Positions 3,941-33,847 of a stretch of 36,861 nt of DNA are shown piece by piece. Position numbers and translations under genes: made by a program. The stretch's first letter is position 1, and every line of letters starts with the position of its first letter. The DNA is from Sulfuricurvum sp. Lineage in GTDB: Bacteria; Campylobacterota; Campylobacteria; Campylobacterales; Sulfurimonadaceae. The stretch lies in NCBI GenBank assembly GCA_030694265.1, contig JAUXYP010000020.1:1-36861 (forward strand), given 5' to 3'. The notes under the pieces were generated by a model that saw nothing but the letters and a program-made list of their open reading frames with translations, was not told where the DNA came from and ran no database searches.

Positions 3941-6168
3941 TCACCACTCACCGTTGCTGATTCATTGGGTGTTCGATTTTTACATTTGGTGCACTCATAC
4001 ACCTCTTTATTACGATACGTACGCGGTGCTAATGCTCCACCGCACCCCTCTACTTCACATTTGTGCTCACTTGGCTCGAATTTGGAGATAAACTTACATT
4101 TTGGATACTCTTCACAGCCCCAGAACGCACCGCGACGGGATTGTCTCCACAGCAGTTTTCCGCCACAATCAGGACACGGAACGGTTGAAAATTTTGTCTC
4201 TTGATTGAGCGTTTTGGTGTTTTTGCACTCCGGATAAGCGCTACACGCGAGGAATTGACCGTTACGGCCGCTTTTGACCACCATGGCGCTGCCGCATTTG
4301 TCACACACCTCTTCGCTGCTCTCATCGGGATTTTCAGAATCTTCTTTTTTATTGCTTTCGGTTTGCTCGGTGTACTTACACTTTGGAAAACCGCTGCACG
4401 CGATAAATTCTCCAAAACGTCCTGAACGCAGGAGCAGTTCACTTCCGCATTGCGGACACTCTCGGCCAAGTGGTGTTGCGATTTTTAGACTGACGATATC
4501 TGCTTTACCGGCATTGATTTTTTCAATAAATGGATGGTAGAAATCGAGCAGTATTTTGTGCCAAGAGGTTCCTTTATCGCTGATTTCATCGAGAGTCTCT
4601 TCCATATTTGCGGTAAACGAGGCATCTACGATCTCTTCAAAATGTTTTTCTAACAATTCGGTCACGGTAAACGCTATCTCTGTCGGGATGATCTGACGTT
4701 TTTCGATTTCGATGTAATTGCGTGCTTGGAGCGTAGAGATGGTCGGTGCATAGGTAGATGGGCGACCGATCCCCTCCGCTTCGAGCTGTTTGATCAAACT
4801 CGCTTCGGAAAAGTGCGATGGCGGCTCAGTGAAGTGTTGTTCGGGAGTGATGGTTTGGATATCGATAGCATCGCCGGTGTTCAATACAGGGAGCAATTTG
4901 TCTTTGTCATCGCTTCCTGTAACACGGTAAAATCCGTCAAACAAGAGCTTACGCCCCGTTGCACGATATTCTGCCTTTGGGCTTTGGAAGGTGATGCTTT
5001 GCTGTTCAAAACGCGCATCGTTCATCTGACACGCTAAAAAGCGGTTATAGATGAGTTTGTAGAGTTTGATTTCGTCAGGCTTGAGATAAGTAGCGGCGAT
5101 TTCTGGCGTAAATTCAAGCATCGTAGGGCGGATCGCTTCGTGCGCCTCTTGTGCCCCTTTGGATTTTTTCAAGTAGGTTTTTGGCTCTTCGGGAAGATAC
5201 GCTTTGCCGTAACGTGTCAAAATAGCTTCACGCGCTGCCTCGACGGCTTCGGCTGCAAGATTGAGGGAGTCGGTACGCATATAAGTAATAACCCCCGATG
5301 TGCCCTCAGGAGTCTTGACCCCTTCATAGAGTGCTTGAGCAACCATCATCGTCTTTTTCGGAGAGAATCCTAGCTGCGATGATGCTGTTTGCTGAATCGT
5401 AGAAGTCATAAACGGCGGGGGCGTAGAGGACTTGCGCTCTTTGGTCTCGATTTTGCCTACAGTGAACGACTCGCCTTTGATGAGGGCTACGATACGTGCC
5501 GCTTCCTTAGCAGTCGTGATCGTCATTTTATCGATCTTTTGCCCCTCTAACATATTGAGAGACGCCTCGATCTCTGGTTTGAACAGGGTATCGATGGTCC
5601 AATACTCTTCGGGGACAAAGGCACGAATTTCGCGTTCACGGTCGATGATGATTTTCAGCGTAGAAGATTGAACACGTCCTGCAGAGAGTCCCTTTTGGAT
5701 CTTGGAGGCAAGAAGCGGTGAGAGTTTGTATCCCACGATACGGTCGAGCAAACGGCGTGCTTGCTGTGCATTGACACGGTCCATATCAATGGCTCTAGGG
5801 CTCTCTAGGGCATGGATGATCGCATTTTTAGTGATCTCATGAAACACAATACGCGGCAGTGATTCGGGATCTTTTTTTATCGCATGGGCGATGTGCCAAC
5901 CGATTGCTTCTCCCTCGCGGTCTTCGTCGGTCGCGATAAAGATGGTATCAGCTTTTTTGGCTAATTCCTGTATCTGTTTGACCGTTGCGGTACTGTCCTC
6001 GCTGATGCGATACTCAGGGATAATGGTCTCATTATCGATTTTGATCCCGAAACGGTTTTTAGGAAGGTCTCGAATATGCCCTTTGGACGCGATGACTTCG
6101 TACTCTTTGGAGAGAAAGTTTTTTATCGTCTTGGCTTTAGCCGGAGACTCTACAATAATCAATTTCAA
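3937..6168 (-). CDS. topA: DNA topoisomerase I (TTG start)
   Basis: A type IA topoisomerase that relaxes negative supercoils through a covalent 5'-phosphotyrosine. The 743 residues show the TOPRIM domain (E7 in VESPAKAKT and the acidic DEDREGE at 81-87), the QARRLLDRIVGY and LSAGRVQS motifs, and the catalytic tyrosine at about 296 (TYMRTDS). Four C-terminal zinc-finger modules follow (CPQCG, CDKCG, CPDCG and a last CEVEGCGG). The start codon is TTG: an AGGA site lies about 8 bases upstream, an in-frame stop lies a few codons further up, and no in-frame ATG lies between. It heads the minus-strand unit topA-phosphoesterase-bioB and diverges from flaA across a 238-base gap. Confidence 0.96.
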   Translation of the reverse strand: MKLIIVESPAKAKTIKNFLSKEYEVIASKGHIRDLPKNRFGIKIDNETIIPEYRISEDSTATVKQIQELAKKADTIFIATDEDREGEAIGWHIAHAIKKDPESLPRIVFHEITKNAIIHALESPRAIDMDRVNAQQARRLLDRIVGYKLSPLLASKIQKGLSAGRVQSSTLKIIIDREREIRAFVPEEYWTIDTLFKPEIEASLNMLEGQKIDKMTITTAKEAARIVALIKGESFTVGKIETKERKSSTPPPFMTSTIQQTASSQLGFSPKKTMMVAQALYEGVKTPEGTSGVITYMRTDSLNLAAEAVEAAREAILTRYGKAYLPEEPKTYLKKSKGAQEAHEAIRPTMLEFTPEIAATYLKPDEIKLYKLIYNRFLACQMNDARFEQQSITFQSPKAEYRATGRKLLFDGFYRVTGSDDKDKLLPVLNTGDAIDIQTITPEQHFTEPPSHFSEASLIKQLEAEGIGRPSTYAPTISTLQARNYIEIEKRQIIPTEIAFTVTELLEKHFEEIVDASFTANMEETLDEISDKGTSWHKILLDFYHPFIEKINAGKADIVSLKIATPLGRECPQCGSELLLRSGRFGEFIACSGFPKCKYTEQTESNKKEDSENPDESSEEVCDKCGSAMVVKSGRNGQFLACSAYPECKNTKTLNQETKFSTVPCPDCGGKLLWRQSRRGAFWGCEEYPKCKFISKFEPSEHKCEVEGCGGALAPRTYRNKEVYECTKCKNRTPNESATVSGE

Positions 6169-6314
6169 TGATTGAATCCTATTACATTATTTAAACGCAA
6201 TTGGAATGCATCCCAATTGGCTACGTTAACACTGGGTTTTCTTTGGCAGAAGGCCCAAATCCATTTATTAATGGATGAATATCGAAAGTGTAACAAAAAA
6301 AATTGCAAAACCGC

Positions 6315-6341
6315 TAAACATTTTTTTTTATATCCCGATAT
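6315..6341 (+). promoter_or_regulatory. Sigma-28 (FliA) promoter of flaA
   Basis: TAAACATT at 6315-6322, an 11-base spacer and CCCGATAT at 6334-6341 match the flagellar sigma-28 consensus TAAAGTTT-N11-GCCGATAA with exact spacing. Transcription should start near 6348, giving a leader of about 60 bases before the flaA start. Confidence 0.85.
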
Positions 6342-6406
6342 AGTCTGTAACAGCAAGGATGCTGAAAAAACTTCAGAGCGAAAGCTCGACCATAAAAGGA
6401 TTTATC

Positions 6407-7879
6407 ATGGGTTTCAGAATTAACACAAACATTGGTGCTATGAATGCACACAATTACGCAACTATGAATAACAAAGAGCTTGACACTTCTCTTACTCGTT
6501 TGAGTTCAGGTCTTCGTATTAACAAAGCGGCAGATGATGCATCTGGGATGGTTATCGCGGATAATCTTCGTGCACAGGCAAAAGGCCTTGGTCAAGCGAT
6601 CAATAATGCAAATGATGGTATCGGTGTTGCGCAAACTGCAGACGGTGCTCTTGACGAGTATATCAACATCATTAACACAGTTCGTACCAAATCGATCCAA
6701 TCAGCGTCTGATGGACAAAACACTGATTCACGTATGGCGATTCAGCGTGATATTAACCGTCTTTTAGAAGAAGCGAATAATATTGCTAAAACGACATCAT
6801 TTAATGGTATTAATCTACTTGATGGTAGTTTTGTCAACAAAAACTTCCAAATCGGTGCGTATGCAAATCAGACAGTTAACATGTCTATTGACAGTGCACA
6901 AACAACAACACTCGGAATGTTTGCTCTCAAAACAGGGACAGAGACGACAGCAGTAGCTTTTGGTGCAGCTGACTTTACAGTTAATGGTATTGCAACAACA
7001 GCATCGGTTGCCGGAAGCGTAGCGGATAATATTGATGCACTTGCTCAAACAGCTGCTTCAGCAGTTCAAAAAGCGGCAATCATTAATACCATTACGAGTT
7101 CTACTGGCGTGACTGCGACCGCGAGTACCAATGTTACCGGAGGCCTTGCAGTAGCAGGGGGTGTAATTGCTGCGGGAACCGTATTTATTAACGGACAAGA
7201 TCTTGGGGATGTTACCTTTAGTGCAAACGATTCGACGGGAACATTAGCGGCAGCATTTAACCGTTTGACGGATAAGAGCGGTATTACTGCTAAAATCGTA
7301 TCGGGTGGAAAACTGGAACTAAGTTCGTCAGACGGATATAACGTTTCTCTTACCACAACTGCGGCGGGCGGAACGGTGGCTCTTGCTGCTAATACGGCAA
7401 AAATATTCGGAGCAGGTAGTACTGTATCGGTTGCGGGTGCTGCAGCTGCTGCTTTGACTGCGGTTGAACAGGGGACCCTTACGTTGGAATCCGATAATGC
7501 AATCACTATTGCCGGTGCTGCTGTAGCAACAGCTGGTTTGGCCGCGACAACGTATTCGGTTGCAAATTCGATTTCAACAGTAGACGTTACAACGTACACT
7601 GCGGCACAAACATCGATCAAAAAAGCGGACCATGCGCTCGCACAGCTTGACCGTACCCGTGCAGACATCGGGTCGGTTCAAAACCAGCTTGAGTCAACGA
7701 TTCGTAATATCTCTGTTACACAGATCAACGTTGCGGCTGCGGAATCTCAAATTCGTGATGTTGACTTTGCAGCAGAATCTGCAAACTTCAGCAAGCGCAA
7801 TATCTTGGCACAATCAGGCTCTTATGCTATGAGTCAGGCAAATGCGGTTCAACAAAACGTTCTTCGTTTACTACAATAG
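6407..7879 (+). CDS. flaA: Flagellin, sigma-28-type (FlaA-like)
   Basis: Flagellar filament subunit of 490 residues. The conserved N-terminal D0/D1 region (MGFRINTNIGAM, LSSGLRINKAADDASGM) and C-terminal helix (QSGSYAMSQANAVQQNVLRLLQ) bracket a variable Ala/Thr/Val/Gly-rich centre. The centre contains a flagellin_IN-type motif (VFINGQDLGDVTFSANDS). The ATG at 6407 has AAAAGGA about 7 bases upstream and gives the canonical flagellin N-terminus; a longer frame from 6359 only reads through the leader. It is monocistronic, with a sigma-28 promoter before it and a terminator at 7892-7910. The Ser/Thr-rich surface domain is a plausible glycosylation target, as in relatives (inference). Confidence 0.95.
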   Translation: MGFRINTNIGAMNAHNYATMNNKELDTSLTRLSSGLRINKAADDASGMVIADNLRAQAKGLGQAINNANDGIGVAQTADGALDEYINIINTVRTKSIQSASDGQNTDSRMAIQRDINRLLEEANNIAKTTSFNGINLLDGSFVNKNFQIGAYANQTVNMSIDSAQTTTLGMFALKTGTETTAVAFGAADFTVNGIATTASVAGSVADNIDALAQTAASAVQKAAIINTITSSTGVTATASTNVTGGLAVAGGVIAAGTVFINGQDLGDVTFSANDSTGTLAAAFNRLTDKSGITAKIVSGGKLELSSSDGYNVSLTTTAAGGTVALAANTAKIFGAGSTVSVAGAAAAALTAVEQGTLTLESDNAITIAGAAVATAGLAATTYSVANSISTVDVTTYTAAQTSIKKADHALAQLDRTRADIGSVQNQLESTIRNISVTQINVAAAESQIRDVDFAAESANFSKRNILAQSGSYAMSQANAVQQNVLRLLQ

Positions 7880-7891
7880 TTTCTAACACTT

Positions 7892-7916
7892 GATCGGGCT
7901 TTGCCCGGTCTTTCTT
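7892..7916 (+). terminator. Rho-independent terminator after flaA
   Basis: GATCGGGC (7892-7899), loop TTT, GCCCGGTC (7903-7910) forms an 8-bp stem with one G-T pair, followed by TTTCTTCT. It separates flaA from flaB transcription. Confidence 0.85.
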
Positions 7917-7983
7917 CTCTCCATTCCTCATTTAATAAACTCCAATCTTTATTTATAGACAAAATTCTTTAAAAACATTATTT

Positions 7984-8000
7984 TTGGAATATCTTTTGCT
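7984..8000 (+). promoter_or_regulatory. Sigma-54 (RpoN) promoter of flaB
   Basis: TTGGAATATCTTTTGCT has the invariant GG (7986-7987) and GC (7998-7999) exactly ten bases apart, fitting TGGCACG-N4-TTGC. Transcription should start near 8011, about 40 bases before the flaB ATG. No sigma-28-like CGATAT box is present here. Confidence 0.8.
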
Positions 8001-8050
8001 TTATGTTGTTAAATACGCGTATAAACGCAAAACCAAAAATAGGATTTATC

Positions 8051-9529
8051 ATGGGTTTTCGTATTAACACAAACATTGGGGCTATGACAGCACACAATTA
8101 TGCAGGTATGAACAACAAAGAGTTGGATACTTCATTGACTCGTTTGAGTTCAGGTCTTCGCATTACAAAAGCTGCTGATGATGCATCAGGGATGGTTATC
8201 GCGGATAATCTTCGTGCACAGGCAAAAGGTCTCGGTCAAGCGATCATGAATGCAAACGATGGGATCGGTGTTGCGCAAACTGCGGATGGAGCGCTTGATG
8301 AGTACATCAACATCATCAACACGGTTCGTACCAAATCTATCCAATCAGCGTCTGATGGACAAAGTGGAGATTCACGTTTGGCGATTCAGCGCGATATCAC
8401 CCGCCTTTTGCAAGAAGCGGATAATATAGCAAAAACAACATCATTCAATGGTATTAATTTGCTCGATGGTGGTTATGTCAATAAAAACTTCCAAATCGGT
8501 GCGTATGCAAATCAAACGGTTAATATTTCGATTGACAGTGCTCGGACAACTACCCTTGGTATGTTTGCGCTGACATCAGGAACCGTAGCAACATCCAATC
8601 TTGGAATTGTTGCAGGTGGAGTGCTTATCAATGGCGCAAGTATCGCACCTTCTGTTGCAGGAAGTGTGACAGATACTATTAATGCGTTAGCGCAGGATAT
8701 AACATCAGCAGTACAAAAAGTTGAAGCGATTAATGCCAGCACTAGCTCAACTGGGGTTACCGCAACGGGTAATACCAATTTAACGGGTACAAGTGCAGCC
8801 GCGGGTGGTGCCCTTGCTGCGGGATCAGTCTTTATTAACGGGGTAGATCTGGGTGCCGTAACATTTAGTACAAACGATTCAACGGGAACTTTGGCTGCAG
8901 CATTTAACCGTATCACCGATCAAACAGGTGTTACGGCTAAAATCGTTTCTGGCGGAAAGTTAGAATTGAGTTCAGCAGATGGTTACAATGTCACACTTTC
9001 AAGTAATAATCTCGGAACAGTTGCGTTAGCTGCAGCGAGCCAGACAGCATTATTTGGTTCAGCAACAGGTCTTTCATCACTAAATGGAGGTGCAAGTGCT
9101 GCTCTTGCAATCGTTTCACGTGGGCAAGTTACTCTTGAATCAGATAATGCTATTGTCATCGCCGGTACAGCTCCTGCTGCAATTGGTTTTGTCGCTGGTA
9201 CCTATTCGGTTGCAAACTCTATATCTACAGCAGACGTTACGACGTATACCGCCGCACAGATGACAATTAAAAAAGCAGACCACGCATTAGCACAGCTTGA
9301 CCGTACCCGTGCGGATATCGGTTCGGTTCAAAACCAGCTTGAGTCAACGATCCGTAACATCTCTGTAACTCAAATCAACGTTTCAGCAGCAGAATCTCAA
9401 ATTCGTGATGTTGACTTTGCGGCAGAATCTGCAAACTTCAGCAAGCGCAATATCTTGGCACAATCAGGCTCTTATGCTATGAGTCAGGCAAATACGGTTC
9501 AGCAGAACGTACTGAAATTACTACAGTAA
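8051..9529 (+). CDS. flaB: Flagellin, sigma-54-type (FlaB-like)
   Basis: Second filament subunit, 492 residues, closely related to the upstream flagellin. The N- and C-terminal polymerisation domains are nearly identical to FlaA, while the central domain has diverged (for example FINGVDLGAVTFSTNDS is kept but surrounding strands differ). The ATG at 8051 follows an AGGA site and gives MGFRINTNIGAM; an upstream frame from 8003 is leader sequence. Its promoter is of sigma-54 type, unlike flaA, matching the division of labour known for Campylobacter jejuni flaA and flaB. A minor subunit made earlier, at the hook stage, is the likely role (inference). Confidence 0.94.
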   Translation: MGFRINTNIGAMTAHNYAGMNNKELDTSLTRLSSGLRITKAADDASGMVIADNLRAQAKGLGQAIMNANDGIGVAQTADGALDEYINIINTVRTKSIQSASDGQSGDSRLAIQRDITRLLQEADNIAKTTSFNGINLLDGGYVNKNFQIGAYANQTVNISIDSARTTTLGMFALTSGTVATSNLGIVAGGVLINGASIAPSVAGSVTDTINALAQDITSAVQKVEAINASTSSTGVTATGNTNLTGTSAAAGGALAAGSVFINGVDLGAVTFSTNDSTGTLAAAFNRITDQTGVTAKIVSGGKLELSSADGYNVTLSSNNLGTVALAAASQTALFGSATGLSSLNGGASAALAIVSRGQVTLESDNAIVIAGTAPAAIGFVAGTYSVANSISTADVTTYTAAQMTIKKADHALAQLDRTRADIGSVQNQLESTIRNISVTQINVSAAESQIRDVDFAAESANFSKRNILAQSGSYAMSQANTVQQNVLKLLQ

Positions 9530-28353: not shown

Positions 28354-29799
28354 TTAGTAGGCAGGGGTTGTCGGCTTTGCTCGGGTTCCAAAATCGGTTC
28401 CCAGTGTTATATAAACGATATTGTTATTATAGTCGGCTGTATCGGTCGTAGAATTACGTTGACGGTATTGGTAATCCGCTGCGGTATAGACGGCATTGGT
28501 AAGGTAATACTTTACTCCTGCGGCTCCTCCCACATAGGTGTCTTTACGGTCGTAACTGTTGTAGTGGCTCCATTGCTGCGTAAGCGAGGCATGGAGGGAA
28601 AGATCATGTGAAACAGCATGTGTGATATTACCGGTTAATGCGGTATTGAGATAACCGGATGAATCCGTTAATGTTGTCTCTTCGAGTGAGCGGTCAAGAT
28701 CCATTGAGAGAGTTGTATCAGGGGTCATTTTGTACTTCACGTTCAAACCGTAGTCGATGGCGTTGACGTCGCTAAAGGCACTGTTTTCGTAGCTTTGGTG
28801 GATACGCCCTACATACATTTCAGCACTGAGAGAATAAGTTGCTAAAATCGCCATCCCTATTGCCGCATTGTATCCGTTCGAATTATGATCGAAAGTAGGA
28901 TCATCGTATTGACGATGATCATTCATTGCTTGAACAAAGAGATCGATACCTTGTGCAGCTGCGTAGGTGATACGTCCACCGCTGAGCGTCTCTGTACGAT
29001 CACGATAATCATTTGAATAGGTATCGCCACTTACTAGAGGGGTATTTTCATAGTTTAGTTTGGTGGTGGATGCCCCAAGACGTACCTTGATATCCTCTGT
29101 CAGCTGATGAAAGATTCCAATATCGCTACTGAAGTCGGTATAGCGAGTAGGGCTCGCGAATGCATCAGTTAGTCCAAGAGAGTTGGTATCTGGTGATGTT
29201 CGGTCTTCGTGATCACGTAAGAGGCTTACACCTGCGTAAACGTTCGTATCGTCAGTGAGATCGATACGCCCCTTTAGATAGCCCCATGTATCAGTGGTAT
29301 TTTCAGCCTTATGGTCTTGATAGCGGTTCAAATGGGTACCGACACCAAGCTCCAATGAGTCACGGGTAAAATTAGGTTTTATCCGAACTTCGGGTGAAAT
29401 GATGAGGATTTTGTCAGAGAGTTCATTCTCACGAGCGGCATAGATATTATCATCGTACATCAGTACAGCGGAGATTTCCGGATAAACAAGGAAATCTCCT
29501 AGAGGTATCCCTCCTTTTGCTTCAGCAGCGAGGCTATCGGAAACCTCGTGAATAGGGTCCAGAGGCTTTGGAGGAGTAGAGGGAAGTGGGGAAATAATGC
29601 CATTTTGGTTGGCATTTCCGAGCTGATTAGCAGATTGCGACATGCTTTGCGTCACACTCCCTGCTTGAGCCTTGCTTTGCGTCACACTGCCTGCTTTGCT
29701 TTGCGTTTGTTCATTGGGAGCTCCGAACACCTGAGGGGCCAAACAAAGCACCGCGGCAAATGAAAAGGTATAACTAACGTTTAGAATCGAATGTCTCAT
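28354..29799 (-). CDS. Outer membrane beta-barrel protein, BBP2-like porin
   Basis: A 481-residue predicted outer-membrane protein. The signal peptide (MRHSILNVSYTFSFAAVLCLAPQVFG) is followed by a low-complexity stretch rich in Gln/Ser/Ala/Asn with an imperfect repeat (QSKAGSVTQSKAQAGSVTQS). A barrel of many alternating strands then begins at about residue 95 (VYPEISAVLMYDDNIYA), resembling the putative beta-barrel porin 2 family. The C-terminus is YITLGTDFG plus a short Pro/Thr tail, not a terminal Phe. The ATG at 29799 has AAAAGGA upstream. It follows the cytochrome-barrel fusion gene by 31 bases on the same strand, so the two are likely one transcript and may function together. Confidence 0.78.
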   Translation of the reverse strand: MRHSILNVSYTFSFAAVLCLAPQVFGAPNEQTQSKAGSVTQSKAQAGSVTQSMSQSANQLGNANQNGIISPLPSTPPKPLDPIHEVSDSLAAEAKGGIPLGDFLVYPEISAVLMYDDNIYAARENELSDKILIISPEVRIKPNFTRDSLELGVGTHLNRYQDHKAENTTDTWGYLKGRIDLTDDTNVYAGVSLLRDHEDRTSPDTNSLGLTDAFASPTRYTDFSSDIGIFHQLTEDIKVRLGASTTKLNYENTPLVSGDTYSNDYRDRTETLSGGRITYAAAQGIDLFVQAMNDHRQYDDPTFDHNSNGYNAAIGMAILATYSLSAEMYVGRIHQSYENSAFSDVNAIDYGLNVKYKMTPDTTLSMDLDRSLEETTLTDSSGYLNTALTGNITHAVSHDLSLHASLTQQWSHYNSYDRKDTYVGGAAGVKYYLTNAVYTAADYQYRQRNSTTDTADYNNNIVYITLGTDFGTRAKPTTPAY

Positions 29800-29830
29800 A
29801 TAAAATCCTTTTAATAGTATCAATTTAGAA

Positions 29831-31144
29831 TTAGAATAGAATGTTCAAACTAACGAGAAAGTCTCGATAATCTTTGACACGTTCAAGACTCGGTTTTGCC
29901 CATGAATGTTCTATGGCCAGTTTCATCGGCAAATAGAGTTCAAACGAGTAATCCGCCCCTACCGTGTAGGCGTGATCAATATCTCTAACATCTCTATGAT
30001 TGCGTGCATAACCACTATCACCATTAATGGTTTGCGTATAATCGGAAAGATCATCAAACGTCAAGTAGGCCGCTTTCAGACCAAAATCTTGAAAAATATT
30101 AATCTCCCCTTCTACTGAGAAAGCTTTGCTATTGAGATTGGTATTTTCCTCTGGATTAAGCAAGTTTGCTCCAACACCTGTGTAGGTAACTTTGTTTTGC
30201 AACACTTTACTCATTACCAATGAGACACTTTTCCCTAGGAGAAGACCTTCAAGCTGAAAATCAATCCCGTAGCTGTCTTGTTGAACACTGAGCGGATCAG
30301 TTGCAGAAACTTGTGATCCACCGTTGATTCCAAAACCGCCTATGATAAAGTTAAAATCACCAATAGGGTATTCATACGCTCCACGTGCAAATCGTAAAAT
30401 GTTATCACTCATCTGCATATTGGCGTTATCCTGTGTCGGAGTAAACATACCTACCGTCGCGAACAGATGACCTTTTCCTCGGAACACATTGTCTCTGTCA
30501 AAATAAAGTTGAATCCCTGTTCCTGAGCTAGAACCAATCTCACATGCTTGAAAAGCATTGCTGAGTTTTCGGATATCAAAAGTCCGAAGCGGTTTATAAA
30601 GTCCTGTGTTATAGGTTTCCATTCCTGAAAAGGGACCAAAACCAGCCGTTGAGTACGCAGCTGCTCCCATGTAGCCGTCTTTGATCTCTTTGGCATATAC
30701 GATTTTTCCTTGGATGGAATTGTCCTCAAGATCTTTGTAGGAGAGATCGATGAGTGCACCGATATGGTCACTTACTCTGCCGCCTACAAACAAGCTAGCC
30801 GTTCTAGGCACAGACCAGTCTCCCCCTGCTGTCGGTGAAGTTTCTTGAATCAATCCATCTGCGCTTGGTTTGTCCCATGTCTCTTCATACAGAGCTTTAA
30901 ACATAACAGAAGCATGCAGATCCATTTTACTGTTGTTGGCATCTAAACTTTTATTACTTTGCGTCATCCCCGAAACAGCGAACTGCCGCCCTACCGCGGT
31001 AAGCTTTGGCATATGCTGCATGTGACATGCCTTACAATCCAAGCCCGTTTGCTTACCGAACATCGGATATGCCTGAGCCTCATTGCTTAATCCAGCCAGA
31101 ACCAGTAAACTTAGTGTTAAAACACTCCAATTTTTCTTTTTCAT
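29831..31144 (-). CDS. Cyc2-like cytochrome-porin fusion
   Basis: The 437 residues combine three parts. The signal peptide is probably cleaved after AQA at about residue 25. A very short cytochrome has one heme motif, C37-K-A-C40-H41, directly followed by LTAVGRQF (48-55). About 360 residues of alternating strands end in FLVSLNILF, with the terminal Phe of BAM substrates. A single N-terminal heme plus an LNxxGRxF-type motif plus a porin barrel is the architecture of Cyc2, the outer-membrane iron oxidase of acidophilic and neutrophilic Fe(II) oxidisers. Here the motif has LT instead of LN. The architecture is visible in the sequence; electron uptake from Fe(II) or another extracellular donor is inference. 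It diverges from a periplasmic cytochrome c gene. Confidence 0.75.
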   Translation of the reverse strand: MKKKNWSVLTLSLLVLAGLSNEAQAYPMFGKQTGLDCKACHMQHMPKLTAVGRQFAVSGMTQSNKSLDANNSKMDLHASVMFKALYEETWDKPSADGLIQETSPTAGGDWSVPRTASLFVGGRVSDHIGALIDLSYKDLEDNSIQGKIVYAKEIKDGYMGAAAYSTAGFGPFSGMETYNTGLYKPLRTFDIRKLSNAFQACEIGSSSGTGIQLYFDRDNVFRGKGHLFATVGMFTPTQDNANMQMSDNILRFARGAYEYPIGDFNFIIGGFGINGGSQVSATDPLSVQQDSYGIDFQLEGLLLGKSVSLVMSKVLQNKVTYTGVGANLLNPEENTNLNSKAFSVEGEINIFQDFGLKAAYLTFDDLSDYTQTINGDSGYARNHRDVRDIDHAYTVGADYSFELYLPMKLAIEHSWAKPSLERVKDYRDFLVSLNILF

Positions 31145-31334
31145 TCCTACTCCCTCTCCATTTGTATTAATACTGCTGATATTAGATTATTTTAGCGATA
31201 ATAAATGAGATTTTTATAATATTTTATTTACATTTCCGGCGTAATAAAAAAATCGTGTTAATCCTCGTTTATAAAAAATAAGTTAAACTTTTAAAAGTCA
31301 AAGAATTAACGTATAAACAGCTAAAAGGACAAAA

Positions 31335-31640
31335 ATGAAGTGTTATCAAATGGTTTTCCTTACCGTTTTCCTTAGTAGTTCTTGTTTTGCAACAGGTGAT
31401 TCGCTTTACAAAAGCAGCTGCGCTTCATGTCATGGGGTAAAAGGTGAAACAAAAGCAATGGGAAAAGCTCAACCGATCCAAGGAATGAAGTCTGCCAGAG
31501 TCGTTAAAGCGCTCAATGAATACGGATCAGGAATTCGACAATCAATGTTACCGGTAACGAAAGCAATCAAATCTAGATTTATAACTACGCACTCTGAAAA
31601 AGAAATTCAAGAAGTCGCAGATTATATCAGTAAGCTTTAA
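31335..31640 (+). CDS. Small periplasmic cytochrome c
   Basis: A 101-residue class I cytochrome c with signal peptide (MKCYQMVFLTVFLSSSCFA), heme motif C29-A-S-C32-H33 and GVKGETKAMGKAQPIQGM after it. M71 (RQSMLPV) is a candidate axial ligand, and the C-terminal helix EKEIQEVADYISKL is typical. It resembles the c-553-type electron carriers of Campylobacterota. Divergent from the cytochrome-porin fusion, it is a plausible electron acceptor for it, as Cyc1-type carriers serve Cyc2 (inference). AAAAGGA precedes the ATG. Confidence 0.88.
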   Translation: MKCYQMVFLTVFLSSSCFATGDSLYKSSCASCHGVKGETKAMGKAQPIQGMKSARVVKALNEYGSGIRQSMLPVTKAIKSRFITTHSEKEIQEVADYISKL

Positions 31641-31771: not shown

Positions 31772-33847
31772 ATGGTTATTGACAGTGTTTGTACCTATTG
31801 TGGCGTAGGGTGTGATATTTCTGCGGAAGTTGAAGATAATAAGATCATAAAAGTTTTTGCAAAAGAGGAAGGAGTCGTTTCGCAAGGACGTCTTTGTATC
31901 AAGGGAAAGCAGGGCTGGGATTTTGTCACTAATGCACGACGCCTTCGCAATGCACGAGTGCGTAAATCATTTTTAAATGCAAATGCGGCACTTTTCGCGG
32001 ATTTGGATATGGACTATCTCGAGCCTGTTGACCATGATTTTTATGAGATCAGTTATGAAAGCGCCTATGAAATTGCGGCACGTAAGCTCAAAGAGATTAC
32101 CGATAAACACGGTTCCCATTCGTTTGCTTCCATCGGAGGAGCACGAACGAGTTGTGAAAGTTCATTTCTTTTTCAGCATTTTACCCGTAATGTCGTAGGT
32201 TCTCCGCACGTGGATAACTGTGCGCGCGTCTGCCATTCACCTTCACTAAAGGGAATGCGTACAACGATCGGTGAAGGTGCTGCAACCAATCCGTTTGATG
32301 ATATTTATGAAACCGAATTTATGGTAGTTATGGGATCCAATACGACCGAGGGTCATCCGATCGTTGCTAACCGCATGTTAGATGTTATCAAAGATAAAGG
32401 AGTTGAACTCGCGGTTTTAGATGTACGCCGCCTTCAGCTATCAAAATCTGCATTACATCATTTGAGCATTCCGTATGAAGCCAATTTGATGATGCTGAAC
32501 ATGATGGCCTATGTCATTATTTCCGAAGATTTAGTAAACGCTGACTTTATAGCAACGCGTACAAAAGGGTATGAAGAATACAAGCAATCGATCTTGAATG
32601 ATCCGTATGCCAATCCTGAGTTCCTTCTGCAAATTCCTGGATACGAATCTTTGGTCGAAGAGATTCGTACCGTTTCACGTAAATACGCGACACGAAAAAC
32701 CCTCTTTTTCTGGGGTCTTGGGATCACAGAGCATTTAGATGGATCGTATGCGGTTATGGCGATTACCCATCTCGCACTGATTACGGGAAATATTGGAAAA
32801 CGCGGTGCGGGGCTGATGCCTCTTCGTGGTCAAAATAATGTGCAAGGAACGTGTGACGTTGGGATGTTGCCGTATTATGCCCCGGATTATCAACCGCCTA
32901 AAGAAATCGGCATGATGACTCCTGATTTGATTAATGCGATGATCGAGGGTGGTATCAAAGCGGTATTTAACATTGGTGAAGACATTGCGCATATTCACCC
33001 CAATCAAAACAAGATTCATGCTGCACTCAAAAATCTTGACCTGCTAATCGTGAATGAGCTGTTTGACAATGAGATAACGAAGTTCGCCGACATCATATTT
33101 GGAGTCAAAAGTGCGTATGAAAAAACGGGTGTTTATGTTAATGCAGAACGCAGATTGCATCTCTCTCAACCGCTTATTAATGTAACGATGCCTGATGACT
33201 GGGAGGTTATCGCAGAGATTTCAAAACGCTATGGTACAGATTTTGGCTATAAAAATTCCAAAGATGTATGGAATGATGTACGCATTGCAGCACCGGTACG
33301 TTTTGGGGGAGCAACCTATGAAAAGCTTGAGACCAATCGTTTACGCGGAATGCAATGGCCGGTACAAGAGGAAGATACTCCTGTCTTGCACCTGCATGAT
33401 TTCCGTACCAAAGACGGGATCGGTTCATTTCGTTACAAACAGTATGAGCCTCGCGGTCAAGTAGCAGAACTTTTACGTGCTCCTACACATGAGGGATATT
33501 ATCTCACAACAGGACGGGTCTTGGTCCATTATAACAATGCCGCTCAGACCAATGCATGTGAAAAACTGAGCCGAAGTCACAGTGAAGATACTCTGCTGGT
33601 CAGTGTTGATGATGAAGATTTTTTTGAATACAAAGATTACGTGGTATTGAAAAGCGAATACGGGCAAAGTGCCCCTTTGCGTGTCAAAGTAAGTTCAACA
33701 GTGAAAAAAGGGACCTTGTTTACAACGTTCCACCATGCCAAGAGCAAAATCAACTTTTTATTCGGGGACGAGCATGACGAGCTGATTAAAACAGCACGCT
33801 TTAAATCGATCAAAGTAGACATCGTCAAACCCGATTATTTGGATTAA
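31772..33847 (+). CDS. Formate dehydrogenase-like molybdopterin oxidoreductase, Cys form
   Basis: The 691 residues follow the E. coli FdhF (FDH-H) layout. A [4Fe-4S] site C7-x2-C10-x3-C14...C42 is followed by the metal-binding CARVCHSPS, with C154 in the place of selenocysteine and the adjacent H155 conserved. RGAGLMPLRGQNNVQGTCDVG and the C-terminal pterin-binding domain (TTGRVLVHYNN) follow. It lacks the N-terminal ferredoxin domains of NAD-linked FdhA and a Tat signal, so it should be cytoplasmic. No electron-transfer or membrane subunit lies in the window. Formate oxidation is the best guess; another oxo-transfer substrate is possible. GGGGAA lies upstream of the ATG. Confidence 0.85.
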   Translation: MVIDSVCTYCGVGCDISAEVEDNKIIKVFAKEEGVVSQGRLCIKGKQGWDFVTNARRLRNARVRKSFLNANAALFADLDMDYLEPVDHDFYEISYESAYEIAARKLKEITDKHGSHSFASIGGARTSCESSFLFQHFTRNVVGSPHVDNCARVCHSPSLKGMRTTIGEGAATNPFDDIYETEFMVVMGSNTTEGHPIVANRMLDVIKDKGVELAVLDVRRLQLSKSALHHLSIPYEANLMMLNMMAYVIISEDLVNADFIATRTKGYEEYKQSILNDPYANPEFLLQIPGYESLVEEIRTVSRKYATRKTLFFWGLGITEHLDGSYAVMAITHLALITGNIGKRGAGLMPLRGQNNVQGTCDVGMLPYYAPDYQPPKEIGMMTPDLINAMIEGGIKAVFNIGEDIAHIHPNQNKIHAALKNLDLLIVNELFDNEITKFADIIFGVKSAYEKTGVYVNAERRLHLSQPLINVTMPDDWEVIAEISKRYGTDFGYKNSKDVWNDVRIAAPVRFGGATYEKLETNRLRGMQWPVQEEDTPVLHLHDFRTKDGIGSFRYKQYEPRGQVAELLRAPTHEGYYLTTGRVLVHYNNAAQTNACEKLSRSHSEDTLLVSVDDEDFFEYKDYVVLKSEYGQSAPLRVKVSSTVKKGTLFTTFHHAKSKINFLFGDEHDELIKTARFKSIKVDIVKPDYLD

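Follow-up and report, generated by a model that had tools for sequence, protein, structure and literature searches.

The stretch analysed here, which we call the window, is the whole contig JAUXYP010000020.1 (36,861 nt) of Sulfuricurvum sp., assembly GCA_030694265.1. A cyc2-like gene on its minus strand encodes a predicted cytochrome-porin fusion, the product of 29831–31144, referred to below as the window protein. Loci and genomes compared with the window carry L-numbers (e.g. L020) and G-numbers (e.g. G224), respectively. The features of the locus are the following:

28354..29799, minus strand: BBP2_2 outer-membrane barrel, 481 aa, 31 bases downstream of the cyc2-like gene (PF10082, E 1e-75)
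29831..31144, minus strand: cyc2-like gene, predicted outer-membrane cytochrome-porin fusion, 437 aa (open reading frame, motif, homologues, 16 strands in the AF2 model)
29834..30922, minus strand: predicted 16-strand beta-barrel, residues 75–437, Phe at the end (AF2 strands from 75–93 to 423–436; OprP/OprO)
31001..31009, minus strand: PKL, corresponding to the PXL motif, residues 46–48 (sequence, homologues)
31022..31036, minus strand: heme c motif C37-K-A-C40-H41 (invariant in 19 of 19 homologues)
31046..31072, minus strand: A-Y-P-M-F-G-K-Q-T, residues 25–33, near-match to the Cyc2 consensus (A to G, R to K)
31070..31144, minus strand: predicted signal peptide, residues 1–25, ending in NEAQA with Y at the cut (KKK n-region, hydrophobic core, AQA cleavage motif)
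31145..31334, no strand: divergent intergenic region, 190 bp, AT-rich, 25% GC (0.247 by GC count)
31335..31640, plus strand: divergent periplasmic mono-heme cytochrome c, 101 aa, with CASCH at 31419–31433 (PF13442/PF00034)

A strong Shine-Dalgarno sequence stands ahead of the ATG that opens the cyc2-like reading frame. The intergenic region is the probable promoter region of both the cyc2-like and the cytochrome c genes; promoter and terminator scans of the locus gave no match above the chance level of shuffled sequences. The cytochrome c gene is adjoined by a gene for a formate dehydrogenase alpha-like protein (31772–33847), which scores 518 bits against an Fdh-alpha cut-off of 666.

Sequence and predicted fold of the window protein

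The window protein has three cysteines (37, 40 and 201) and hence a single CXXCH, followed by PKL, LTAVGRQF and a C-terminal Phe. The initial annotation had described a single heme motif directly after the signal peptide, LTAVGRQF and a barrel ending in Phe, and both the sequence and the AF2 model agree with this description. Since C37, C40 and H41 are invariant among the homologues, the CXXCH is no chance match. The published Cyc2 consensus has AXPXFAR[Q/K][T/Y] upstream of CXXCH and PXL after it (PMC8406198). The segment AYPMFGKQT matches five of the seven specified positions exactly, and four residues separate H41 from P46 of the PKL. The closest relatives have FAKQT, FGKQT, FSTQT or FTAQT in this segment. 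As the sister clades keep FARQ or FSRQ forms (ATPAFARQ, AIPAFSRQTG or ALPGFSRQTG), the drift of FAR is local to the window clade.

Pfam and NCBIfam searches matched the window protein to no family, and a PDB search with the single sequence yielded no credible relative. A profile of 19 rows found the DcaP porin in PDB (E 4.5e-4), aligned in the barrel part only. The AF2 model, built with 19 homologues, has pLDDT 77 and pTM 0.81 (below 50 pLDDT in the signal-peptide region) and contains exactly 16 strands, with the heme motif in a short helical N-terminal segment ahead of the barrel; a barrel of about this size with an N-terminal heme had been expected. The matches listed by Foldseek are outer-membrane barrels. 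The top solved structures in VIA-align, rather than soluble cytochromes, are OprP (Z 22.5) and then OprO (Z 22.3), which are also the structural matches of Cyc2-PV1 according to Keffer et al. (PMC8406198). Taken together, motifs and model show a predicted exported protein, a 16-strand outer-membrane barrel with one putative c-type heme site after the signal peptide. The features of the Cyc2 family are present: a signal peptide, one N-terminal CXXCH, PXL, a length of at least 365 aa (here 437) and a 16-strand OprO/OprP-like barrel.

Family placement and distribution

Close relatives were found by a profile search of genome contigs with a seven-row alignment. Those with names come from Sulfuricurvum (68, 61 and 55% identity) and Sulfurovum (53%), while full-length homologues extend to Sulfurimonas and the Pseudomonadota. 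Homologues are present in 16 of 397 Campylobacterota genomes. Among 41 Sulfuricurvum genomes, the window type occurs in four, with a fifth copy cut by a contig end, and canonical Cyc2 in five others. The cyc2-like hit in G423 was considered as a pseudogene and rejected, its truncation being the contig end.

The maximum-likelihood tree of 60 sequences splits into two superclades (100/100). The first is formed by the window clade, the tandem pairs of Sulfurimonas, Sulfurimonas singles and a few Pseudomonadota; the second comprises canonical Cyc2s of the Burkholderiales and Acetobacteraceae, the A. ferrooxidans plasmid copy and canonical Campylobacterota copies. The window clade itself consists of six Campylobacterota sequences with 100/100 support and a stem of 0.94. 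When 24 sequences from the class of a Gammaproteobacteria MAG (L038) were added, the split was kept and the CHFQHFP type joined the superclade of the window protein. Cyc2 cluster 3 has been reported from sulfur-oxidising Gammaproteobacteria (PMC12383625), and it is plausible that this superclade corresponds to it, although the tree, having no named Mariprofundus, Gallionella or Leptospirillum, does not anchor the published clusters directly. Hence the window protein belongs to the Cyc2 cytochrome-porin family in the broad sense, in a divergent clade that a long branch sets apart from canonical Cyc2s. Some copies are broken: in a Thiobacillus MAG (L039/L092) the cyc2-like gene has an in-frame TGA in L092, and the L037 copy is split into two frames, due to either sequencing error or decay.

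The initial annotation treated the protein as the Cyc2 iron oxidase. The single-heme cytochrome-porin architecture stands, with a near-match to the Cyc2-type motif, but an iron-oxidase role for this branch is unsupported, because the protein lies outside the canonical superclade and because the Cyc2 authors consider function in divergent clusters uncertain (PMC8406198). It is possible, though rather doubtful, that the protein serves as a neutrophilic Fe(II) oxidase in the same way as Cyc2-PV1 and that these Sulfuricurvum gain energy from Fe(II). The architecture and the porin templates shared with Cyc2-PV1 speak for this, as does a DUF2202 gene, which we take to encode a ferritin-like family, near the tandem-pair sister clade. 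On the other hand, the window protein sits on a deep branch away from the canonical sequences, no iron genes were found beside its gene among the neighbouring ORFs (Pfam search), and canonical Cyc2 sits in other Sulfuricurvum genomes instead.

The annotation also held that a role of this kind is little described for the Campylobacterota. Campylobacterota Cyc2, nested among the Zetaproteobacteria, has already been published (PMC12442345), and Cyc2 was absent from the Sulfurimonas MAGs of one study (PMC10066037); the literature searched, however, contained neither the window clade nor its module of neighbouring genes.

Neighbours of the cyc2-like gene

The divergent gene 31335–31640 encodes a mono-heme cytochrome c with a signal peptide, as had been noted initially. 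A mono-heme cytochrome c gene lies near the cyc2-like gene in all window-clade contigs that reach far enough (the window, L020, L063 and L082), and the best matches of the window cytochrome in 41 genomes are copies beside cyc2-like genes. In the tandem-pair loci L024–L028 a divergent mono-heme cytochrome c is directly upstream in five cases out of five, though of a subfamily different from that of the window cytochrome. A c-type cytochrome gene also follows plasmid-borne Cyc2 in A. ferrooxidans, Ideonella and Caballeronia. Gene order marks the divergently transcribed mono-heme cytochrome c as a partner conserved with the cyc2-like gene. At the position of a Met in the L020 cytochrome that is a possible sixth heme ligand, the window cytochrome has Ile, and its relatives mostly have no Met there; the Ile at this candidate position leaves the redox competence of the window cytochrome unproven. 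Two further arrangements were observed. At L020:3841–3968 a decayed C-terminus of a second cyc2-like gene lies next to the cytochrome c gene and divergent to it. On the A. ferrooxidans YQ-N3 plasmid (L097, CP084173.1) a divergent transposase gene is followed by the Cyc2-family gene and then a c-type cytochrome gene.

Response regulators adjoin the cyc2-like gene in relatives. This would fit a porin whose heme senses redox state or gas, or merely plugs the pore, with no respiratory role; we consider such a function very improbable, as the periplasmic cytochrome c partner is conserved across two sister clades.

The gene downstream is co-directional and its start is best read as ATG 29799 (the alternative listed start is TTG 29823), which leaves 31 bases after the stop codon of the cyc2-like gene. 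Its product scores 255.4 bits against PF10082 (gathering cut-off 23.7), so that the outer-membrane barrel predicted here is confirmed. EpsL (TIGR03014) was rejected at 54 bits, below the equivalog cut-off of 275 bits. As a conserved partner, however, the BBP2_2 barrel was rejected: among the loci compared it adjoins a cyc2-like gene in the window genome only and in no relative. Thus the initial proposal of an electron-import locus keeps its cytochrome c, a conserved neighbour in relatives, and loses the barrel. The sole BBP2_2 homologue in 41 Sulfuricurvum genomes (60%, L080:178–2973, minus strand) is a frame of 932 aa in which the barrel is fused to further OMP_b-brl (PF13505) sequence, while the window copy has only a short tail behind the first barrel. 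The L080 gene lies beside response regulators of the same family that adjoins the cyc2-like gene in relatives, and hence the presence of the BBP2_2 barrel is not random. It is a partner slot specific to the window genome rather than a conserved part.

In relatives, the neighbouring gene encodes a different kind of protein. In L020, L022 and L063 it is a lipoprotein. The copy in L020 matches choice-of-anchor O (NF040591) at 585 bits and BNR only weakly. Its AF2 model had pLDDT 28 and was not used as evidence. In L021 and L023 the adjacent gene codes for choice-of-anchor F with a C-terminal sorting-like tail (143 bits to NF033657 for the L023 protein), and an exosortase gene follows. The arrangement of choice-of-anchor F, sorting-like tail and own exosortase directly downstream is seen at L021:2669–4647, L023:1894–3937 and L160:2–1268, the three exosortases scoring below the cut-offs of all named exosortase subfamilies.

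Choice-of-anchor O occurs in exactly four of 397 Campylobacterota genomes (G224, G238, G331, G356), all of them belonging to the five genomes that carry the window clade or the tandem-pair sister clade; in three of the four, its gene and the cytochrome-porin gene are on different contigs. The hypergeometric probability of this co-occurrence is 4.9e-9 with genomes treated as independent and uncorrected for kinship, and they are not independent, as three of the carriers belong to one genus; L020 (Sulfuricurvum) and L022 (Sulfurovum) show the link as well. Choice-of-anchor F is present in three of 41 Sulfuricurvum genomes, all of them carriers (p 9e-4). Thus, by gene content, carriers of this branch appear almost always to hold a surface-anchored protein, a link not described before: no report tying choice-of-anchor O or F to cytochrome-porins was found in the literature searched. 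Searches of the window genome for choice-of-anchor O, choice-of-anchor F and exosortase were each negative, and with both choice-of-anchor partners absent the module is incomplete or altered there.

The large surface proteins of relatives, with the weak BNR matches in the lipoprotein and the exosortase anchoring, suggest handling at the surface, and the host genera are sulfur-oxidising. Both points speak for a putative donor other than Fe(II), such as elemental sulfur or polysulfide, Mn(II), a mineral, an electrode or a partner cell. We regard this as unlikely, since a lone heme placed at the periplasmic mouth would suit a small, soluble donor better (the argument of PMC8406198).

Proposed role and comparison with known systems

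The divergent Cyc2-type cytochrome-porin probably takes electrons from an extracellular donor, for which Fe(II) is the first candidate, and passes them to the periplasmic mono-heme cytochrome c. The heme would sit at the periplasmic mouth of the barrel, where a small extracellular reductant entering the pore could reduce it, and the electron would then move to the divergently transcribed cytochrome and on to the respiratory chain. By analogy with relatives, the system may be under two-component control, and a large surface-anchored partner (choice-of-anchor O or F, linked by co-occurrence) may cap the pore or handle the substrate or product. In the window genome, with no surface partner, the BBP2_2 barrel occupies its operon position. 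The Cyc2 authors suggest that a chaperone or a ligand might be required for Fe(II) at the pore (PMC8406198), and the choice-of-anchor proteins are candidates for that role. We tentatively extend the uptake reading to a three-part outer-membrane system, which is quite possible: the cytochrome-porin, a dedicated periplasmic mono-heme cytochrome and a swappable surface partner acting as the pore chaperone, namely choice-of-anchor O, choice-of-anchor F with its own exosortase, or the BBP2_2 barrel.

Uptake is the most likely direction of electron flow, which cannot be read from the sequence. Export to an acceptor outside the cell, for instance Fe(III) or Mn(IV), has precedents in the MtrA/MtoA conduits, reported to work in both directions (PMC10734462), and in Sulfurimonas passing electrons to MnO2 (cited in PMC11748539). 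It is nevertheless quite improbable here, because the characterised Cyc2s are oxidases and one heme cannot bridge the membrane to a solid.

Cyc2 is a marker gene for neutrophilic iron oxidation, and to our knowledge the entry of Fe(II) into its pore and the exit of Fe(III) are an unsolved question. A specific surface-anchored protein would be a candidate for the missing part in this pore traffic, and the association gives a first hint of function for the NCBI families choice-of-anchor O and F, whose role has so far been unknown. It also suggests that sulfur-oxidising Campylobacterota may tap an additional extracellular electron source. 

Mariprofundus ferrooxydans PV-1 Cyc2 and clusters 1–3 (Keffer 2021, McAllister 2020) share with the window protein the signal peptide, the single CXXCH, PXL, the OprO/OprP-like 16-strand barrel and a length of at least 365 aa. 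Compared with PV-1 Cyc2, the window protein has a drifted form of the AXPXFAR-type motif (FGKQT) and forms part of its own deep clade with no validated member.

The canonical Campylobacterota Cyc2s (PMC12442345; L011–L016, L074–L077) share phylum, genus and architecture with it. However, they belong to the other superclade (100/100), have the exact AxPSFARQTG and, unlike the window gene, are surrounded by a TonB receptor/FecCD cluster or HK-RR genes; their alignment with the window protein is confined to the first third. Canonical cyc2 inside a TonB receptor/FecCD ABC transporter cluster was also seen in other genera of the same family (L064:5592–11928, L066, L067).

The tandem Cyc2-like pairs of Sulfurimonas and relatives (L024–L028, at about 6000–8700, with a DUF2202 gene nearby) form a sister clade, about 30–39% identical over the full length, and likewise have a mono-heme cytochrome c gene in divergent orientation; choice-of-anchor O is present in three of three genomes tested. 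They differ in having two genes and the other cytochrome c subfamily, and in that the first copy has no PXL, which suggests divided roles. Finally, MtrAB, MtoAB and PioAB resemble the window system in combining a barrel and a cytochrome into a conduit across the outer membrane, but they have a 26-strand barrel with a decaheme insert, whereas the window protein is predicted to have one fused heme and 16 strands.
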